A stretch of 64,000 nucleotides of DNA, from NCBI RefSeq assembly GCF_012027305.1, contig NZ_SNUF01000001.1, positions 124,001 through 188,000 on the forward strand. Reading direction: 5' to 3'. A program made the translations under genes and the position numbers. The notes beneath the pieces are model-generated. The model worked only from the letters and a program-made list of their open reading frames with translations. It did no database searches and was not told the DNA's origin. Positions 23,799 to 31,767 of the stretch are shown one piece after another (positions within the stretch are counted from its first letter, which is position 1; the number at the start of each line of letters is the position of its first letter). The DNA is from Thermococcus sp. MAR1. GTDB lineage: Archaea; Methanobacteriota_B; Thermococci; Thermococcales; Thermococcaceae.

Positions 23799-24401
23799 TC
23801 ACCTCACGAGGGACTTTATCTCCTCAGGTAGCTCATCGCCCTTGAGTGTCAGGGCGACGTGGTAGGCGCTCTTCATGGCGTCGTCCTCTTTCTCCGCCCA
23901 GGTTACCACGACGAGGTCGCCGTCCTCCAGCCTGAACGCTCCCTTAACCTTCTCGGCCAGTTCGGGCATCGTCTCGCTCAGTGGCCTTCCGTCCTCCGGA
24001 AAGACGGGTTCACCATCTCTCACGGCGAGAATCATGGCCCCTTTCGCGAAGAATCTTATGGCTTCATCCCGTAGCTCGATGCTCTTGAACTCCCCAGCAT
24101 CTTTCACCGTTAGTGCGAAGGCGGGATATCCCTCAACCTCCCCGATACGGTGGACCTCGGAGAAATGCTTGGAAATTTCCTCTAGGAGCTCCATTCCCTT
24201 CTCGTTGAGCGAGTGTCCGCGCTGGGTGGAGCTTATGACCTCGAGGGCGGCAAGCTTCTTCAAAAGCGTTCTAACGCTTCCCTCTCCGAGATCAAGAACA
24301 TCTGATATGGCCTTTCTCCCCGTCGGATTCTGAAGCATGAAAAGAACCGCAACTGCATCCTCGAAGGTGAACTCAGGATAGGCTCCCCTCTTCCAGCTCA
24401 T
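23799..24401 (-). CDS. HTH regulator with DUF4443 domain
   Basis: 200 aa. The N-terminal winged helix is visible as A-I-S-D-V-L-D-L-G-E-G-S-V-R-T-L-L-K-K-L (about residues 30-50), with a wing around R-G-H-S-L-N-E-K-G. The C-terminal about 110 residues correspond to DUF4443, probably a ligand-sensing part. It is the first gene of the pyrF operon, with SD GGAGGGAAGCC. A TATA-like TTTTTAAT lies at 24434-24441. It may sense a pyrimidine or flavin and control the operon; this is inference from position only. Confidence 0.82.
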   Translation of the reverse strand: MSWKRGAYPEFTFEDAVAVLFMLQNPTGRKAISDVLDLGEGSVRTLLKKLAALEVISSTQRGHSLNEKGMELLEEISKHFSEVHRIGEVEGYPAFALTVKDAGEFKSIELRDEAIRFFAKGAMILAVRDGEPVFPEDGRPLSETMPELAEKVKGAFRLEDGDLVVVTWAEKEDDAMKSAYHVALTLKGDELPEEIKSLVR

Positions 24402-24452: not shown

Positions 24453-25601
24453 TCAGAACCAACGCGGCTCCAGACCGGCCCAAATGCGCATCTTCTCGTG
24501 GGCGATGATGCGCGGTATGTTCGGCCTGTCCCTCGGTCCCGGGTTCTTCATGTAGAAGGCGTTGACCTCGTAGACGGTTCCGAAGGCCTTCTTCTCGACC
24601 GCTATCTTTCCGAGCCTTGCCAGATCAACGAGCAGGCCCGCTAAAGCTGGACTGTCGTTTATCCTGCCGGTAATGACCAGCTCATCGTGGGCACCGTTGA
24701 AGCTGACGTACTCGATGTGCATCGCTATGAACTTCTTGTCGCCGAGAGGCTCCAGGAATCCAGTGGGCTTGATGTAGTGCGGCGCGTCGTAGCCGAGGAG
24801 CTCCTTGACGACCGAGCTCTTGGTGAACTCCTTGCTCTTGTTCCTCTCCTTGTCGGTCAAAGCCAGGAAGTCGTTGTTTCCGCCGATGTTGAACTGGGCT
24901 ATGTCAAGCACATACCTGTTCCTCTGGGCTAGGTGGCTGAGTATATCAGCTGTGAGCGGGGTTGCGCCGGTGGCCCCGTCGTCGCCGAAGATTACCATGT
25001 TGCTCTCCTTGGCAAGCTCGACAAATGCTGGATCGTTGGCTATAAGCGTTGGAATCGCGTTGACGAAGGCAGCCCCGCCAACCTCCTTGGCGTACTGGGC
25101 TATCGCGTAGGCGTAAACCTGGGTCGCCGTAAGTCTCTCCCTGTTGTCCTCGGCGATGGCCTTCTCAAGCTCCTCCCTGCTTCCGAAGGGGACAAAAGCT
25201 TCGGTGGTGCAGACGTTGATGAAGACCTCTGCCTTGAGCTCCTTCCACTCGTTAACGAGGTGCTCGACTGCTTCCTTGAGAGTCATCTCGTCCTCAAGGC
25301 CGGTAGCTTCGATCGGAAGGTTCCTGAGGCTCCTCAGGTGGATCCCCTTTCTGATTGTGATGCCCTTGAGGCTCTCCGGGGCCTCTGGGTCGTAGGCTTT
25401 GACGACCTCGTGGAGGTCCCTTCCAACCTTGCTTTTATCAACGTCGTAGGAACCGACTATCTCAATCTCCCTGATTTTGATCGGGAGCTCATCGGCTAGG
25501 GGGACGCCGTACGGCTCCATCTTTCCGGCCTTTATCTTCTCCAGACCGCTCGCGAAGATGCTGGCAACGTAGCCCTGTCCGAGTACAACAACCCTGACCA
25601 T
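24453..25601 (-). CDS. Inositol-1-phosphate synthase (INO1/MIPS)
   Basis: 382 aa NAD-dependent enzyme converting glucose 6-phosphate to L-myo-inositol 1-phosphate. The Rossmann start V-R-V-V-V-L-G-Q-G-Y-V-A-S, the G-D-D-G-A-T-G-A-T-P-L catalytic region (about residues 213-223) and N-I-G-G-N-N-D-F-L are family marks. ATG 25601 has GGAGGTG as SD; an in-frame GTG at 25610 sits inside it. In Thermococcales the product feeds phosphatidylinositol lipids and di-myo-inositol phosphate, the heat-stress solute. The matching synthase lies at 30399-31682 in the same window. Confidence 0.95.
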   Translation of the reverse strand: MVRVVVLGQGYVASIFASGLEKIKAGKMEPYGVPLADELPIKIREIEIVGSYDVDKSKVGRDLHEVVKAYDPEAPESLKGITIRKGIHLRSLRNLPIEATGLEDEMTLKEAVEHLVNEWKELKAEVFINVCTTEAFVPFGSREELEKAIAEDNRERLTATQVYAYAIAQYAKEVGGAAFVNAIPTLIANDPAFVELAKESNMVIFGDDGATGATPLTADILSHLAQRNRYVLDIAQFNIGGNNDFLALTDKERNKSKEFTKSSVVKELLGYDAPHYIKPTGFLEPLGDKKFIAMHIEYVSFNGAHDELVITGRINDSPALAGLLVDLARLGKIAVEKKAFGTVYEVNAFYMKNPGPRDRPNIPRIIAHEKMRIWAGLEPRWF

Positions 25602-25623
25602 CTCCTCCACCTCCTTTGCTTGC

Positions 25624-25651
25624 GGTAAATTATTTTACAGCAGTTAAATAG
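25624..25651 (-). promoter_or_regulatory. Promoter region of the inositol-1-phosphate synthase gene
   Basis: The TATA-like CTATTTAA (25644-25651, minus strand) lies about 43 nt before the ATG. Just downstream, 25624-25637 holds the imperfect palindrome GTAAATTATTTTAC, well placed for a repressor over the start site. No regulator is identified. Confidence 0.45.
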
Positions 25652-25741
25652 TTTTTGGTTGAAAAACGGTTTTATGGATTTTTGAACATTCTCTCCGTAC
25701 TTGTTTGTCTGAATACCGCTCACAGAGCCCAGTCCAAAAAT

Positions 25742-25750
25742 TTTATAAAT
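25742..25750 (+). promoter_or_regulatory. TATA box of the first sugar-type ABC operon
   Basis: TTTATAAAT would give transcription from about 25775 and a leader of about 70 nt, long for this organism, which contains the hairpin described at 25798-25840. Confidence 0.55.
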
Positions 25751-25797
25751 AACAAAATCTGAATAAAAGATGGAATCAGTTCGCTTTCTAAAATAAG

Positions 25798-25848
25798 CCC
25801 TCCGAGCCTTTTTGGGCTCGCTTTTGAAAACTTCGGAGGGTGATGGCC
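25798..25848 (+). promoter_or_regulatory. Leader hairpin sequestering the ribosome binding site of the ABC solute-binding gene
   Basis: CCCTCCGA (25798-25805) is the perfect complement of TCGGAGGG (25833-25840), which contains the SD of the downstream gene. An inner stem CGAGCC (25803-25808) / GGCTCG (25815-25820) shares three bases with the first arm, so the two stems partly compete. This is the form of a translation-control switch. Confidence 0.55.
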
Positions 25849-27483
25849 ATGAGGGCCGCGGCGCTGTGGCTGATTGCACTGGTGATCTTAGGAGTAATCG
25901 CCAGCGGTTGCATAGGCGGCGAGGAAGCGAAGACTTCTCAGGCTGAGGTTCAGCTTACGGGAGACTTCACCAAGGACGTGGTGGAGATAGGAAAAATTCT
26001 GGAGCAGAACGGGGTTAAGGAGGTTAAGTTCTCGGCCTGGGGTTCCGGCGATCCGAACAGCGTAATGAGGGTTTACGGAATAGTTGAAGCCGCGAGGAGG
26101 ATAAACAAAATCTGGGCCGACAACGGGATCAACGTCAAAATCGTGGTAACCGAGACCCACTACGTTGCCTCCTTCCAGGATGCCTACAAGGAGTACCTCA
26201 GCAAGCAGCCCCTAGGGCAGGCCGGGGACTTCTTCGTGAACAGCTACGCCTTCCTGCCGACGCTGGCGGACGAAGGCTACATACTCGACATGACTGACTA
26301 CGCCAAAGCCTATCAGAGCGTTATCGACGACTTCTACCCGTCCCTGATTGAGGCCTCAAAGTACAACGGAAAACTCTACGGCCTTCCGCAGGACACCGAG
26401 GCAAGGCCGCTCTACATAAGGAATGACGTTGCTCAAAAGATAGGGTTCGACCTCAACGGTCTCGATGAGAAGGTTAAGAACGGCGAGTTCACCTGGAGTG
26501 ACGTCTACTATTGGGCCAAGAAGGCCAAGGACGAAGGTGCCGTCGAGTGGGGCCTCATCCACAGGAAAGGCTCCGCTCACCCCGATCTGATACAGTTCAT
26601 CTTCGCCTTCGGTGGAAAGCTCTACGACCCAAACACCGGAAAGCTCGTCGTTGACGTTCCTGCAGTCTACAAGTGGCTCTACGTTGAGTGGAAGTTCGCC
26701 CGCGATGGCCTTCTTCCGGAGGACATAATGAGCTGGGACTGGGCCAAGCAGATACACCCCACCATAGTCGAAGGCAGGACGCTCTTCGACATAGGCGGAA
26801 CATGGTACTGGACCGAGTGGCAGACCAAGCAGTACTACGCCAAGGGCGGAACGCCGAGGGGCCTGAAGCCTGAAGAGGTCAAAGCATGGTTCTACTACAC
26901 CCTCTTCCCTGCCGGAGAGAGGGGAGACAAGCCTGTAACCCTCAGCCAGCCCTTTGTCTGGATGATAAACTCCAAGGCGGGCCAGCTGAACCCGAAGTAC
27001 GACGAGCTCAAAGACGTTTACCACAAGCTCGCCTTCCTGATGCTCATAAAGGCCAGCGACCCGGACATAAACGCCATACACAGCGTCATCTCTGCCCACC
27101 TGCCCGTGAGAAAGGAGGCGGCCAAGCTTATCAAGGACGAGAAGTGGCTCAACGACCTCAAAGCGCTCAACCTCGACCTTAGCGACGAGGTGAAGAGCAA
27201 CATCAAAGACATAGTTGAAGCCACCGTCAACCCGATAAACGCCCAGTTCCTCGCTGATGTCAGCTACATGCTTGAATACACCCACCTCGCCCCGGCCCAC
27301 CCGAAGTACCCGGCCCTAGCGGATATCTTCAAGGATGCAGTTGACAAGGTTCTAAGGGGCGAGATGACCCCTGAGGAGGCCGTCAACTACATCATACAGA
27401 AGGTCAACGCTGATCCGGAGCTCAAAGACAGCGTCGAGGTGCAGGGGGAGATACCAAAGGACTGGAAGTTTCCCCAGGGCTGA
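25849..27483 (+). CDS. Sugar-type (CUT1) ABC transporter solute-binding lipoprotein
   Basis: 544 aa, well above the usual 400-450 aa for CUT1 binding proteins. The signal peptide ends in the lipobox I-A-S-G-C (Cys about residue 19), so it is membrane-anchored. The body has the type 1 extracellular solute-binding fold features (K-L-Y-G-L-P-Q-D-T-E and F-D-I-G-G-T-W-Y-W-T). ATG 25849 was chosen for its spacing from GGAGGGTGAT; in-frame starts at 25840 and 25843 lie in that SD. Two permeases and an ATPase follow. It is divergent from inositol-phosphate synthase. Confidence 0.9.
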   Translation: MRAAALWLIALVILGVIASGCIGGEEAKTSQAEVQLTGDFTKDVVEIGKILEQNGVKEVKFSAWGSGDPNSVMRVYGIVEAARRINKIWADNGINVKIVVTETHYVASFQDAYKEYLSKQPLGQAGDFFVNSYAFLPTLADEGYILDMTDYAKAYQSVIDDFYPSLIEASKYNGKLYGLPQDTEARPLYIRNDVAQKIGFDLNGLDEKVKNGEFTWSDVYYWAKKAKDEGAVEWGLIHRKGSAHPDLIQFIFAFGGKLYDPNTGKLVVDVPAVYKWLYVEWKFARDGLLPEDIMSWDWAKQIHPTIVEGRTLFDIGGTWYWTEWQTKQYYAKGGTPRGLKPEEVKAWFYYTLFPAGERGDKPVTLSQPFVWMINSKAGQLNPKYDELKDVYHKLAFLMLIKASDPDINAIHSVISAHLPVRKEAAKLIKDEKWLNDLKALNLDLSDEVKSNIKDIVEATVNPINAQFLADVSYMLEYTHLAPAHPKYPALADIFKDAVDKVLRGEMTPEEAVNYIIQKVNADPELKDSVEVQGEIPKDWKFPQG

Positions 27484-27492
27484 GGTGATTTC

Positions 27493-28431
27493 ATGAGGAA
27501 GGGAAAGCTCAGGGACCTTTCCTTCTTTCTTTCTCCAATGGTTCTGATGGTGTTTCTGTTCTATTTGATTCCCTTAGTTATGACCGTCTACATAAGCATG
27601 ACCAGGATGAGGAACTGGAACGTTGACAGGTACCTTACCGAGTTCGTCGGCCTCTACAACTACGAGAGGCTCTTCTACATGTTTCAGCACGACCCAACGT
27701 TTAAGGCCGTTATACTGACTACCGTTGTCTTCGTTGGAATAACGCTCATTATAAACGTTTTCGGTGGCCTTGCGCTGGCCCTTGCGACCTTCTTCATCGA
27801 TGAGAAGCCAGCATCTTCGTACAGGCTCCTCTGGCTCCTTCCCAGGATGTCGCCGATAGCGGTTTACAGCCTTGTCTGGTACTACTTCTTCCACGGGAGT
27901 GAAATCGGAACGCTGAATTCAATCCTAATGAGCCTCGGCATCATCTCGGAGCCTATCCCCTGGGGCCAGGTAACGCCCTGGGGGGCGTGGAGCGTTATAA
28001 TTTTCGTCAATGGCCTTGTTGGTGTGAGCTTTGGGATGATAGTCTTCACCTCGGCCCTGAATCAGATACCCAGAGAGCTCGTCATAGCCGCGAGGGTTGA
28101 TGGCGCATCTTCCTGGCAGATATCGAGGCGGATTCTGATTCCTATGATTAAATGGCACCTCCTATATGTGCTCACATGGCAGTTCCTCAGCCTGCTGACG
28201 ACCTATCCACACCTCTTCCTGCTCGTCCAGTGGGACCTCGTCAACAGGGACTATGGAACAACTTTGGCTCTCTACGTCTTCAACACGGCCTTCGGCAGGG
28301 GAGAGCAGGATCAGGGGCTGGCGGCTGCAGCAGCTGTCATACTCTCCATAATCGGAATCCTTGGTGGCTTCGTGACGCTCAAGGTCCTCAAGTTTGAAAA
28401 GATGATGAAAAAGCCCAGGGGGGACTTCTGA
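27493..28431 (+). CDS. Sugar-type ABC transporter permease (MalF/UgpA-like)
   Basis: 312 aa with about six helices. The EAA loop appears as E-L-V-I-A-A-R-V-D-G-A-S-S-W (about residue 196-209), followed by I-L-I-P-M-I. It starts nine nt after the binding protein with the SD GAGGTGATTTC, and its TGA overlaps the ATG of the second permease by one base. It forms the channel with the next gene product. Confidence 0.92.
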   Translation: MRKGKLRDLSFFLSPMVLMVFLFYLIPLVMTVYISMTRMRNWNVDRYLTEFVGLYNYERLFYMFQHDPTFKAVILTTVVFVGITLIINVFGGLALALATFFIDEKPASSYRLLWLLPRMSPIAVYSLVWYYFFHGSEIGTLNSILMSLGIISEPIPWGQVTPWGAWSVIIFVNGLVGVSFGMIVFTSALNQIPRELVIAARVDGASSWQISRRILIPMIKWHLLYVLTWQFLSLLTTYPHLFLLVQWDLVNRDYGTTLALYVFNTAFGRGEQDQGLAAAAAVILSIIGILGGFVTLKVLKFEKMMKKPRGDF

Positions 28432-29300
28432 TGAGGGACGTGGAAACGAGACCCAAGAGGTACGAACGGCTCATAATCCTCGCCCTTCTCCTTGCGAGCC
28501 TCCCGCTCATCCTGGGCTTTTCCCTGCTCGTCCTTTCGAGCCTCAGCACGGAAATGATCACCAACCTCGACCCCAGCTCCTTCCACCTGACGCTTGAGAA
28601 CTGGATAAACCTCTTCCAGGGGAGGATAGCCACTACCGGTGGAATAAGGGTCAACATATGGCGCATAACCCTCAACACACTCATAGTGGCCCTCGGCGTT
28701 GCCGGCGTCGTTACCGGGATAAGCACCCTAGCCGGCTACTCCCTCTCAAGGATAGACTTCCGCGGAAGGAAGACCATGATGGTCCTCCTCCTCGTCCTCC
28801 ACGCCTTCCCGGGCGTTGCCCTCATAGTAGGAGTTTACCTCCTCTACCGCCTCACGTTCCCCCAGAACTATGAGGTCGTCGGGCTCTACTCCTTCGCGTA
28901 CGTCATACTGGCGAGGGCCGCATTAGAGATACCCATGTCGATCTGGCTCATGAAGGGCTTCTTTGACACCATCCCCTGGGAGTTCGAGTGGTCGGGAATT
29001 ATAGACGGCGCCTCGCGGATAACCGTCTGGAGAAAGATAATGTTGCCCCTCATAAAGCCCGGAATTCTGGCGGTTGCCCTCTTCGCCTTCCTCGCCGGCT
29101 GGCAGGACATAATCTACGTGAGAACCTTCCTCGTCTATCCCACGCTCGCGACTTTCATAGAGGCCAACATAGAGGCAGAGTACTCCCACATGCCCCTGAT
29201 AGCCGCCGCCGGAACGTTCTACCTCCTCCCCACGATAATATTCTTCATCACTGCCCAGCAGCTCCTCCTCCAGGGCTACTCGGGTGGAATAAAGGGCTGA
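28431..29300 (+). CDS. Sugar-type ABC transporter permease (MalG/UgpE-like)
   Basis: 289 aa with six helices. The EAA-type loop is degenerate: E-F-E-W-S-G-I-I-D-G-A-S-R-I-T, where the E-A-A is replaced by E-W-S although the distal G-A-S and L-P-L-I-K-P-G are kept. The start overlaps the previous stop (TGATG). It pairs with the MalF-like permease. The ATPase gene follows directly. Confidence 0.92.
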   Translation: MRDVETRPKRYERLIILALLLASLPLILGFSLLVLSSLSTEMITNLDPSSFHLTLENWINLFQGRIATTGGIRVNIWRITLNTLIVALGVAGVVTGISTLAGYSLSRIDFRGRKTMMVLLLVLHAFPGVALIVGVYLLYRLTFPQNYEVVGLYSFAYVILARAALEIPMSIWLMKGFFDTIPWEFEWSGIIDGASRITVWRKIMLPLIKPGILAVALFAFLAGWQDIIYVRTFLVYPTLATFIEANIEAEYSHMPLIAAAGTFYLLPTIIFFITAQQLLLQGYSGGIKG

Positions 29301-29310
29301 GGTGGTTGAA

Positions 29311-30396
29311 GTGGTTAAGGTCACGCTGGAGGACATCACGAAGAGGTTCGGCGACTTTGAGGCCCTCAAGCGGGTAAGCCTTGAGATAGCCGACAAGGAG
29401 TTCATGGCGCTCCTCGGACCGAGTGGAAGTGGCAAGTCAACGCTCCTCTACACGATAGCAGGAATTTATCGGCCAACAAGCGGGAAGATATACTTCGACG
29501 GCAGGGACGTTACCGATGTTCCACCGAAGGACAGGAACGTCGGTCTGGTCTTTCAGAACTGGGCACTCTACCCCCACATGAAGGTCTTCGACAACATAGC
29601 CTTCCCTCTTGAGCTTAGAAAGGCACCGAAGGACGAGATAGCCAAAAAGGTCAGGGAAGTTGCGGAGATGCTCCGTATAGAGAACCTCCTCGAAAGATAT
29701 CCCTGGCAACTTTCAGGTGGGCAGCAGCAGAGGGTTGCCATAGCGAGGGCCCTGGTCAAAGAGCCGGACGTCCTCCTGCTCGACGAGCCGCTGAGCAACC
29801 TCGACGCGCTCCTGAGGCTTGAGGTAAGGGCCGAGCTCAAGAGGCTCCAGAAGGAGCTTGGTATCACAGCTGTTTACGTCACCCACGACCAGGCCGAGGC
29901 CTTGGCAATGGCCGACAGGATAGCCGTGATAAGGGAAGGGGTGATACTCCAAGTCGGAAGCCCAGACGACGTCTATTACAGACCGAAGTACCGCTTCGTC
30001 GGCGGCTTTCTTGGAAGCCCGCCCATGAACTTCGTCGAGGCAGAGATTGAAGACGGCCAGCTGAATGTCTATGGAAGCAGGATTCCGGTTCCGGCCCAGT
30101 ATCGGGGGCTGATTGAGAAACTCGGTGTCACGGAGGTTATTCTTGGCTTCAGGCCGCACGATGCGGAGGTCGTTAAGGAAAAAACTGAAGGACTCGCCGG
30201 AACGGTCTATTCCTTCGAGCCCCTTGGCAGGGAGCAGATAGTCACGGTCTCGGTCAACGGAGCCTTTGTCAAGGTTTTTGCCCCTGAGGGGGAGCACTTC
30301 AGCTTCGGCGAACCTGTAACGGTGAAACTCCGGGAGGAGAGGATAGTCCTCTTCGACAGGAAGACGGAGAAGGCCCTTGAGTTCCTTGAAGATTGA
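29311..30396 (+). CDS. Sugar-type ABC transporter ATPase (MalK/UgpC-like)
   Basis: 361 aa. It has Walker A GPSGSGKST, Q-loop Q-N-W-A-L, signature LSGGQQQRVAIARAL and Walker B LLLDEPLSNLDA. A C-terminal TOBE/OB regulatory domain (about residues 235-361) has the motif L-G-F-R-P-H-D-A. GTG 29311 gives M-V-K-V-T-L-E-D-I and has GAGGTG six nt upstream; an in-frame GTG at 29302 sits within that SD. It is the last gene of the operon and converges on the DIPP synthase gene. Confidence 0.93.
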   Translation: MVKVTLEDITKRFGDFEALKRVSLEIADKEFMALLGPSGSGKSTLLYTIAGIYRPTSGKIYFDGRDVTDVPPKDRNVGLVFQNWALYPHMKVFDNIAFPLELRKAPKDEIAKKVREVAEMLRIENLLERYPWQLSGGQQQRVAIARALVKEPDVLLLDEPLSNLDALLRLEVRAELKRLQKELGITAVYVTHDQAEALAMADRIAVIREGVILQVGSPDDVYYRPKYRFVGGFLGSPPMNFVEAEIEDGQLNVYGSRIPVPAQYRGLIEKLGVTEVILGFRPHDAEVVKEKTEGLAGTVYSFEPLGREQIVTVSVNGAFVKVFAPEGEHFSFGEPVTVKLREERIVLFDRKTEKALEFLED

Positions 30397-30398
30397 AC

Positions 30399-31682
30399 TC
30401 AAACCTTTGCCCTTTTTACCAGCCACGCCGTCATAACCACCCGCAGGTGCGTGAGCACGGCGAGTAGGAGGAAGAGTGCCTTAATCGAAGCCCCGACCGG
30501 ATACAGAAGGAAGAGCATGGTGGTGAAGATTCTCTCGTCCCTCTTGCCGGGGAGCTTTCTGAGGGCGGTAATCGAGCCGTAGGCGTCCTCACCGTAGGCG
30601 GCCTTGAACCTCTCGGTCGAGTAGCTCACCATCACCGAGCCGAGGAGTGCCAAGAGGGCGATTAGATACCAGAGAGACTCGGTAAGGGTCGAATAGGCCA
30701 GGAGGGCCAGAAACGTGCCGTCAACGTAGCGGTCGAGGATGGAGTCGATGTAGCCCCCGAACCTGCTCGTCATCATCTGGGCTCTCGCCAGCTCGCCGTC
30801 AACGCCGTCGAGGATTGAGCTAATCTGATACAGTATTCCCGCCAGCGGAAGGCTGACGAGCGTCAGAAAGGCCGAAATCACTCCGAGGGCAAATGTAATG
30901 AGGGTCATCTGGTTCGGGGTGACTTTCTCGGCGAGGAGGCAGCTTATCTCGGTTGAAACTTTCCTGTTGAGGTGCCTGCTGATGAACCCGTCGCCCGTTC
31001 CCTTCACCGCGGTCTTGACGAGCATCCTCTTGGCCATCTTAAGGTCAGAGGGCGTGTCAACATCAATCCAGGGGAGGCCGTCGAGGAAGGTAACTGGCAG
31101 TTCGGCCCTCTTAACAATCTCGCTTAAGGGGTAGTCTCCTCCTCTCTCCCTCTCCAGCGCATCTGTTATCTCGAATATTGTGTCATCGAGGACAAAGAAG
31201 CCCGTATCGACCGCGTCCCATCCCTCAAGCTTCTTCCCTATCTCCGTCACCCTGCCGTTTTCAACCTTGAGCTTCGTCGCCTCGCCCACGTCCGTCCATC
31301 TCGGTTTTCTATCGGCTATCAGGCCGCTTCCCCTAAGGGCTTCCCTGATGAATTCCTCACCGTAAACGTGGTCGCCCATCACCAGAACGAATCTTCCAGA
31401 GACGTGGTTTTTGACCAGGTGGAGGGAGTGCCCGTTGCCCTTTTCCGGCTCGGAGTTGATTACCAGCTCGGCGTTGAAGCCGTGCCTCTCCAAGAACTCA
31501 CGGTAAAGTCCTGCATAGCGTTCGTTGGTGACTATCACGAACCTCTCAACGCCGTTTTGTCCGAGGAGGGTAAGCGTCCGGTACAGGATCTCCCTCCGGG
31601 CGACTTTCAGGAGCCCCTTGGGCCTCTTCCCCATCCTCGTCCCCAGGCCTGCCACCAGAATTACCGCCGTTTTTGGCACCAT
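30399..31682 (-). CDS. Bifunctional inositol-1-phosphate cytidylyltransferase / DIPP synthase
   Basis: About 427 aa, two domains. The N-terminal domain (1-225) is a nucleotidyltransferase with V-A-G-L-G-T-R-M-G and R-P-K-G-L-L. The C-terminal domain is a CDP-alcohol phosphotransferase with D-G-E-L-A-R, then eight residues, G, three residues, D, three residues, D, and several membrane helices. The protein makes CDP-inositol and condenses it with inositol 1-phosphate to give phospho-di-myo-inositol phosphate, the precursor of the heat-stress solute DIP. ATG 31682 has AGGTGAT upstream; ATG 31688 is an alternative. A TATA-like TTTAAAAA at 31693-31700 is unusually close to the start. Confidence 0.93.
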   Translation of the reverse strand: MVPKTAVILVAGLGTRMGKRPKGLLKVARREILYRTLTLLGQNGVERFVIVTNERYAGLYREFLERHGFNAELVINSEPEKGNGHSLHLVKNHVSGRFVLVMGDHVYGEEFIREALRGSGLIADRKPRWTDVGEATKLKVENGRVTEIGKKLEGWDAVDTGFFVLDDTIFEITDALERERGGDYPLSEIVKRAELPVTFLDGLPWIDVDTPSDLKMAKRMLVKTAVKGTGDGFISRHLNRKVSTEISCLLAEKVTPNQMTLITFALGVISAFLTLVSLPLAGILYQISSILDGVDGELARAQMMTSRFGGYIDSILDRYVDGTFLALLAYSTLTESLWYLIALLALLGSVMVSYSTERFKAAYGEDAYGSITALRKLPGKRDERIFTTMLFLLYPVGASIKALFLLLAVLTHLRVVMTAWLVKRAKV

Positions 31683-31767
31683 TGGCATCACCTTTTTAAA
31701 GCCCCCGCCGAGCCTCTCTCAAGTGATGGTTATCCGACCAATGATTTGAAGCTTTCGGGTGAGAGAG

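Follow-up and report, generated by a model that had tools for sequence, protein, structure and literature searches.

On a narrow balance of probability, the leader of a four-gene, sugar-type ABC transporter operon in Thermococcus sp. MAR1 is a structured RNA that would repress translation in cis by masking the Shine-Dalgarno (SD) sequence. Its CCCTCC arm would pair with GGAGGG and form a stem (P1) that encloses a small conserved hairpin (P2), and masking of the SD would lower translation of the first gene of the operon at the growth temperature. The mask may then be relieved by partial melting above the growth optimum, by a bound protein or ligand, or by a ribosome on the leader. Most likely, a single Thermococcus clade acquired or reinforced the SD-masking stem in a hairpin leader that is older and conserved. 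Computation shows that the two arms are complementary, predicts that the SD is masked at 85°C, and reveals selective constraint on arm, hairpin and linker within a clade of ten genomes. An RNA thermometer and a leader peptide, both considered below, would each amount to SD masking with a specified opener, so that the probabilities given to these rivals overlap with that of the main reading. A search of open-licence papers retrieved no report of this leader element.

The locus lies on contig NZ_SNUF01000001.1 (assembly GCF_012027305.1). The window, which is the whole stretch of DNA analyzed here, comprises 64,000 nt (contig positions 124,001–188,000). The leader is situated at the promoter-proximal end of the transporter operon, which is flanked on both sides by genes for the synthesis of di-myo-inositol phosphate (DIP; Table 1). 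The preliminary description of this DNA had proposed that the flanking genes make a heat-stress solute, and the matches to Inos-1-P_synth and, above cut-off, to NF041135 identify them as DIP genes. A PH0730-like N-terminal/DUF4443 protein, a putative regulator encoded at 23799–24401 (−), adjoins the DIP and transporter genes and is a candidate for regulating the locus. Three in-frame start codons follow the SD (GTG 25840, ATG 25843, and ATG 25849). Of these, the Thermococcus orthologs of the binding-protein gene share just ATG 25849, and automatic annotation may therefore pick the wrong start.

The transcription start was predicted from the position of the TATA box, with the spacing calibrated on 464 kb sampled from the same genome. 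In this sample, the ATGs of leaderless genes peak at +28 to +30 from the start of the TATA-like motif, and a second ATG peak at +37 to +39 belongs to genes with an SD. The leaderless peak thus places the expected transcription start at approximately 25770–25772 and the length of the leader at approximately 77–79 nt. The predicted start thus lies upstream of 25805, whereas a start downstream of this position would have counted against the preliminary description. The leader is long for this organism, as originally suggested, and its predicted length is slightly above the approximately 70 nt given there. Published leaders have median lengths of 16 nt in T. kodakarensis, where about 20% measure 50–300 nt (PMC4247193), and of 12 nt in T. 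onnurineus (PMC5316973). Against these values the leader is long, yet not exceptional.

Table 1. Features of the leader and the neighboring genes, in window coordinates.
Feature	Position	Strand	Basis or remark
Myo-inositol-1-phosphate synthase gene, divergent	24453–25610	−	PF01658, PF07994 (Inos-1-P_synth)
TATA box TTTATAA of the transporter promoter	25742–25748	+	Sequence; conserved in 20 orthologs; spacing calibrated on own genome
Mini-ORF ATG GAA TCA GTT CGC TTT CTA AAA TAA (MESVRFLK*), possible leaderless peptide	25770–25796	+	Begins at the predicted transcription start; weakly supported as a peptide
Conserved block CGCTTTCTAAAATAA, partly complementary to the SD region	25782–25796	+	0 changes in 15 columns, ten genomes; duplex energies
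P1 5′ arm CCCTCCGA (anti-SD arm)	25798–25805	+	Perfect 8-nt complement of 25833–25840
Inner hairpin P2, GAGCC 25804–25808 / GGCTC 25815–25819	25804–25819	+	Paired in 20/20 orthologs
Linker J GCTTTTGAAAAC, conserved	25820–25831	+	Nearly invariant
P1 3′ arm TCGGAGGG, overlaps the SD	25833–25840	+	Complement of 25798–25805; carries most of the SD
Shine-Dalgarno GGAGGGTGAT of ATG 25849	25835–25844	+	Sequence; literature consensus
ABC transporter substrate-binding protein gene (SBP_bac_8)	25849–27483	+	PF13416; first operon gene, downstream of the leader
Permease gene 1	27493–28431	+	PF00528
Permease gene 2	28431–29300	+	PF00528
ATPase gene	29302–30396	+	PF00005
Bifunctional IPCT/DIPP synthase gene (DIP biosynthesis)	30399–31691	−	NF041135, above curated cut-off

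The two arms of P1 pair perfectly over 8 bp, exactly as first described, and the 3′ arm includes most of an SD for which the published consensus is GGDGRD (PMC4247193). When the leader was shuffled 5000 times with its dinucleotides preserved, 34 shuffles contained a complement to this SD of at least 8 nt. A genomic sample of 119 intergenic SD leaders included 3 that reach 8 nt; the gene starts of this background were called by a simple script and are not curated. Pyrimidine-rich leaders, however, readily pair with SDs. At 85°C, this SD is predicted to be less accessible than that of any other leader in the set of 119 (0.087; median 0.62), although these values derive from nearest-neighbor energies that are extrapolated to 85°C, ignore cellular ions and proteins, and are rough. 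At permissive temperature the SD is predicted to be paired (unpaired probability 0.04 at 70°C and 0.09 at 85°C), in support of the proposed SD capture. When the anti-SD arm was masked in silico, the SD became about as accessible at 85°C as that of an average leader, its predicted value increasing from 0.09 to 0.62. The folding energy of the leader is unremarkable (z = −1.0); its special feature is which bases pair, rather than the overall folding energy. Another potential partner of the SD, the conserved block in the 3′ half of the mini-ORF, was rejected: in the core clade its nominal pairing with the SD is strong, yet it contributes little to the pairing of the SD there at 85°C.

The preliminary description had also suggested that P1 competes with an alternative inner stem (CGAGCC, 25803–25808, with GGCTCG, 25815–25820) that overlaps the first arm of P1 by the bases CGA. 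The overlap exists, and P2 is predicted to be mildly antagonistic, as masking one P2 arm in silico lowered the accessibility of the SD from 0.09 to 0.02 at 85°C. The minimum-energy fold, however, holds P1 and P2 together in a nested arrangement, which would make for a weak rather than an all-or-none switch. According to these folding models, P1 is the mask and P2 a mild antagonist acting through the shared CGA. A role of P2 as a terminator was rejected, as the T-run of its loop is not conserved.

A survey of 94 Thermococcales genomes identified matches to the binding protein in 43 of them, 42 of which are full or near-full orthologs. Twenty leaders from the genus of the window (g1) and a sister genus (g5) were aligned, and further leaders were read from g4 (11 leaders), g3, and g6 (one leader). 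A covariance model (R1) built on the g1 and g5 leaders hit, at a cut-off of E < 1e-8, exactly those 20 loci in the 94 genomes, all of them upstream of the binding-protein gene; the leader is single-copy per genome and gene-specific. R1 also gave weaker matches, among them one before valS and one before a flagellin-like gene; these resemble chance hits or promoter sequences and were dismissed as further copies of the element. In g3 the leader is unrelated and the upstream neighbor differs. P2 is the deeply kept part of the leader: its arms can pair in every g1 and g5 ortholog, in 10 of the 20 by means of a G-U pair, around loops of 4–6 nt. In g4, the corresponding position is taken by hairpins with other sequences (ATGCC/GGCAT, and CACCA/TGGTG in two species), which individually score modestly against shuffles. 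An arm-swap test of P2 across genera (p = 0.0008) was discounted, as the arms had been picked by eye for pairing. In a part of g4 (leaders L023–L028), the predicted 5′ terminus carries a second hairpin, GGTAGC-TTT-GCTACC, and TCTTGAA takes the place of a CCCTCC-type arm as a possible pairing partner of the SD.

The inverted repeat, whose GCC-N5-GGC core is common to two genera, might also be a DNA operator, that is, a transcription-factor site downstream of the transcription start. This is very improbable, because the length of the spacer varies between 4 and 6 nt and half of the orthologs have GGGCC/GGCTC arms, which can pair as RNA through G-U but are asymmetric as DNA. The G-U pairs of P2 and its loop lengths thus favor RNA over a DNA operator.

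The distribution of P1 is more restricted. Most members of the ten-genome clade form a strong stem; L006 has a mismatched one, L011 and L015 have none, and the stem is weak in g5. In about half of all orthologs it is weak or broken. Covariation of the P1 arms, to which the preliminary description had looked for support, is weak: both sides change in two of the six pairs and 83% of the cells are paired, but an arm-swap permutation on eight lineage representatives gave p = 0.14, and the outcome for all sequences (9/2000) is inflated by relatedness. The divergent ortholog L014 has an SD stem of its own (9–10 bp, ACTCTTAAAG/CTTTAGGGGT). Masking of the SD did not prove to be a conserved property, given that the predicted accessibility at 85°C ranges from 0.09 to 0.75 across the 20 orthologs.

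Selective constraint was assessed in ten Thermococcus (g1) genomes by counting parsimony changes per site on an approximate tree. The fourfold sites of the gene, which served as neutral reference, average 1.97 changes per site, and 19.5% of them are unchanged. The anti-SD motif CCCTCC shows no change in its six columns; for independent and neutral columns, such an outcome would be expected with a probability of about 5e-5 (0.195^6). P2 and the linker are likewise nearly unchanged in this clade. Judged by sequence conservation, the leader block as a whole is clearly constrained and is under selection, and constraint on the arm alone is inseparable from that of the neighboring columns. The strong purifying selection on the anti-SD arm argues that the arm is functional in one clade. 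With regard to SD masking and constraint, the case is thus stronger than the preliminary description could show. P1 is regarded as a genuine stem that is under selection in one clade, and not as a property of the whole family; in the folding models, a conserved structure that includes the SD is present in the ten-genome clade and is weak or lost outside.

These patterns also bear on a reading without any SD-based switch, according to which P2 and its AU-rich flanks are conserved for RNA stability, as a protein site or for ribosome standby, and the complement to the SD is a by-product. The much wider retention of P2 and the linker compared to P1, the decay of P1 in many orthologs and its weak covariation are what this reading would lead one to expect. 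It is nevertheless rather unlikely, since CCCTCC is invariant in ten genomes where a neutral site undergoes about two changes, and since the SD in this genome is the least accessible of all leaders in the background set. SD masking by P1 is favored by a complement beyond chance, this low accessibility, the effect of releasing the arm and the invariant CCCTCC, and also by the occurrence of a single leader per genome, the pairing of P2 in all 20 orthologs and the alternative SD stem of L014. The scarcity of compensatory changes in P1, the loss of P1 in some orthologs, the ease with which pyrimidines pair with SDs and the extrapolated energies weaken it.

If the leader masks the SD, heat might open it. 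In such an RNA thermometer, the stem would close the SD up to the growth optimum and melt above, so that the transporter would be made in heat stress together with the products of the DIP genes. Predicted SD accessibility rises from 0.06 at 80°C to 0.41 at 100°C in this genome, with opening between 85 and 100°C, and the mean of the ten-genome clade rises from 0.26 to 0.55 over the same interval. DIP synthesis by the flanking genes would fit this function, and heat induces the MIPS gene of Pyrococcus furiosus (PMC10746257). Ordinary leaders, however, open on heating too (0.55 to 0.69 between 80 and 100°C in the same calculation), and the melting range varies widely among the 20 orthologs, as reflected by their divergent accessibilities at 85°C. 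A heat-opened mask is physically possible according to the folding models, and a thermometer is unlikely.

Comparison with known systems reveals partial similarities. The bacterial SD-masking thermometers of the ROSE and fourU families contain a U-rich or mismatched motif. Like these elements, the leader has a short stem over the SD that is predicted to open on heating, but its stem is GC-rich and lacks their motif, and its melting range is not conserved. Translational riboswitches resemble it in being conserved, structured 5′ leaders that precede a transporter gene and capture the SD. The leader is shorter than 80 nt, however, and with one short hairpin it offers no evident ligand pocket. No Rfam covariance model matched the region 25600–25950 at up to E = 1. 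Putative riboswitches reported from Thermococcales are the fluoride-type crcB and the preQ1-like sRk28 (PMC4247193). Bacterial leader-peptide attenuators of the erm type share with the leader a mini-ORF directly before an SD-masking stem, but the mini-ORF found here shows no detectable selection, is partly lost, and encodes no evident stalling peptide.

This mini-ORF could nevertheless provide another way of opening the mask, in that ribosomes initiating on it without a leader would reach its stop codon, immediately 5′ of the anti-SD arm, and there disrupt P1 and expose the SD. The start codon fits the leaderless start peak, and 14 of the 20 g1 and g5 orthologs have ATG or GTG at TATA +27/28 with a stop 24 nt later, despite divergent codons 2–5 (MESVRFLK in this genome; MAFARFLK, VTSSYFLK, MALIYFLK, and MTLICFLK in other leaders). 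Masking the mini-ORF plus 10 nt in silico raised the predicted accessibility of the SD from 0.09 to 0.57 at 85°C in this genome. However, the start codon evolves at the neutral rate in the ten genomes (3, 1, and 2 changes), as do codons 2–4, changes are not clearly concentrated at third codon positions (13, 14, and 18), the start is lost in L006, L008, L012, and L018, and ATG or GTG falls within the same 5-nt window in 12 of 44 promoter matches with long leaders. Control by mini-ORF ribosomes is thus quite improbable, and a selected leader peptide was demoted after the constraint tests despite the position and the intact eight-codon frame in 14 of the 20 orthologs. An apparent mini-ORF in g4 was discarded as well: its start, an ATG in most species, lies at TATA +22/23 and probably precedes the start of transcription.

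That the leader is a genuine archaeal translational switch, in which heat or mini-ORF ribosomes would open the conserved mask and thereby control a transporter among DIP genes, is a rather doubtful proposition. If true, it would join a very small set of cis-acting translational switches known from Thermococcales, and a response of the leader to heat would tie the transporter to DIP physiology. The leader is a clean test case for translational control at the RNA level near 85°C, since it is short, single-copy and conserved, the anti-SD arm can be mutated with the SD untouched, and genetic tools are available in the genus.

Two observations concern sequences beyond the transporter loci of Thermococcales and the leader proper. 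Relatives of the binding protein with 59–78% identity occur in metagenome-assembled genomes (MAGs) labeled Archaeoglobaceae, Desulfurococcales, Aeropyrum, Acidilobaceae, Methanothermococcus, and Pseudothermotoga (L055, L056, L057, L058, and L061–L071). This patchy spread among hyperthermophiles suggests horizontal transfer; the leader was not seen by eye in any of these MAG loci. In several Thermococcus genomes (L112, L113, L117, and L118), a conserved inverted repeat, CCCTTCTGAGGG, is found at the R1 match, about 40 nt upstream of the gene for valyl-tRNA synthetase (valS) and near a TATA-like motif, TTTTTAA. The CCCTT of this repeat can also pair with the valS SD, AAGGG. The TATA spacing puts this repeat probably upstream of the transcription start, and it may thus be a DNA site.
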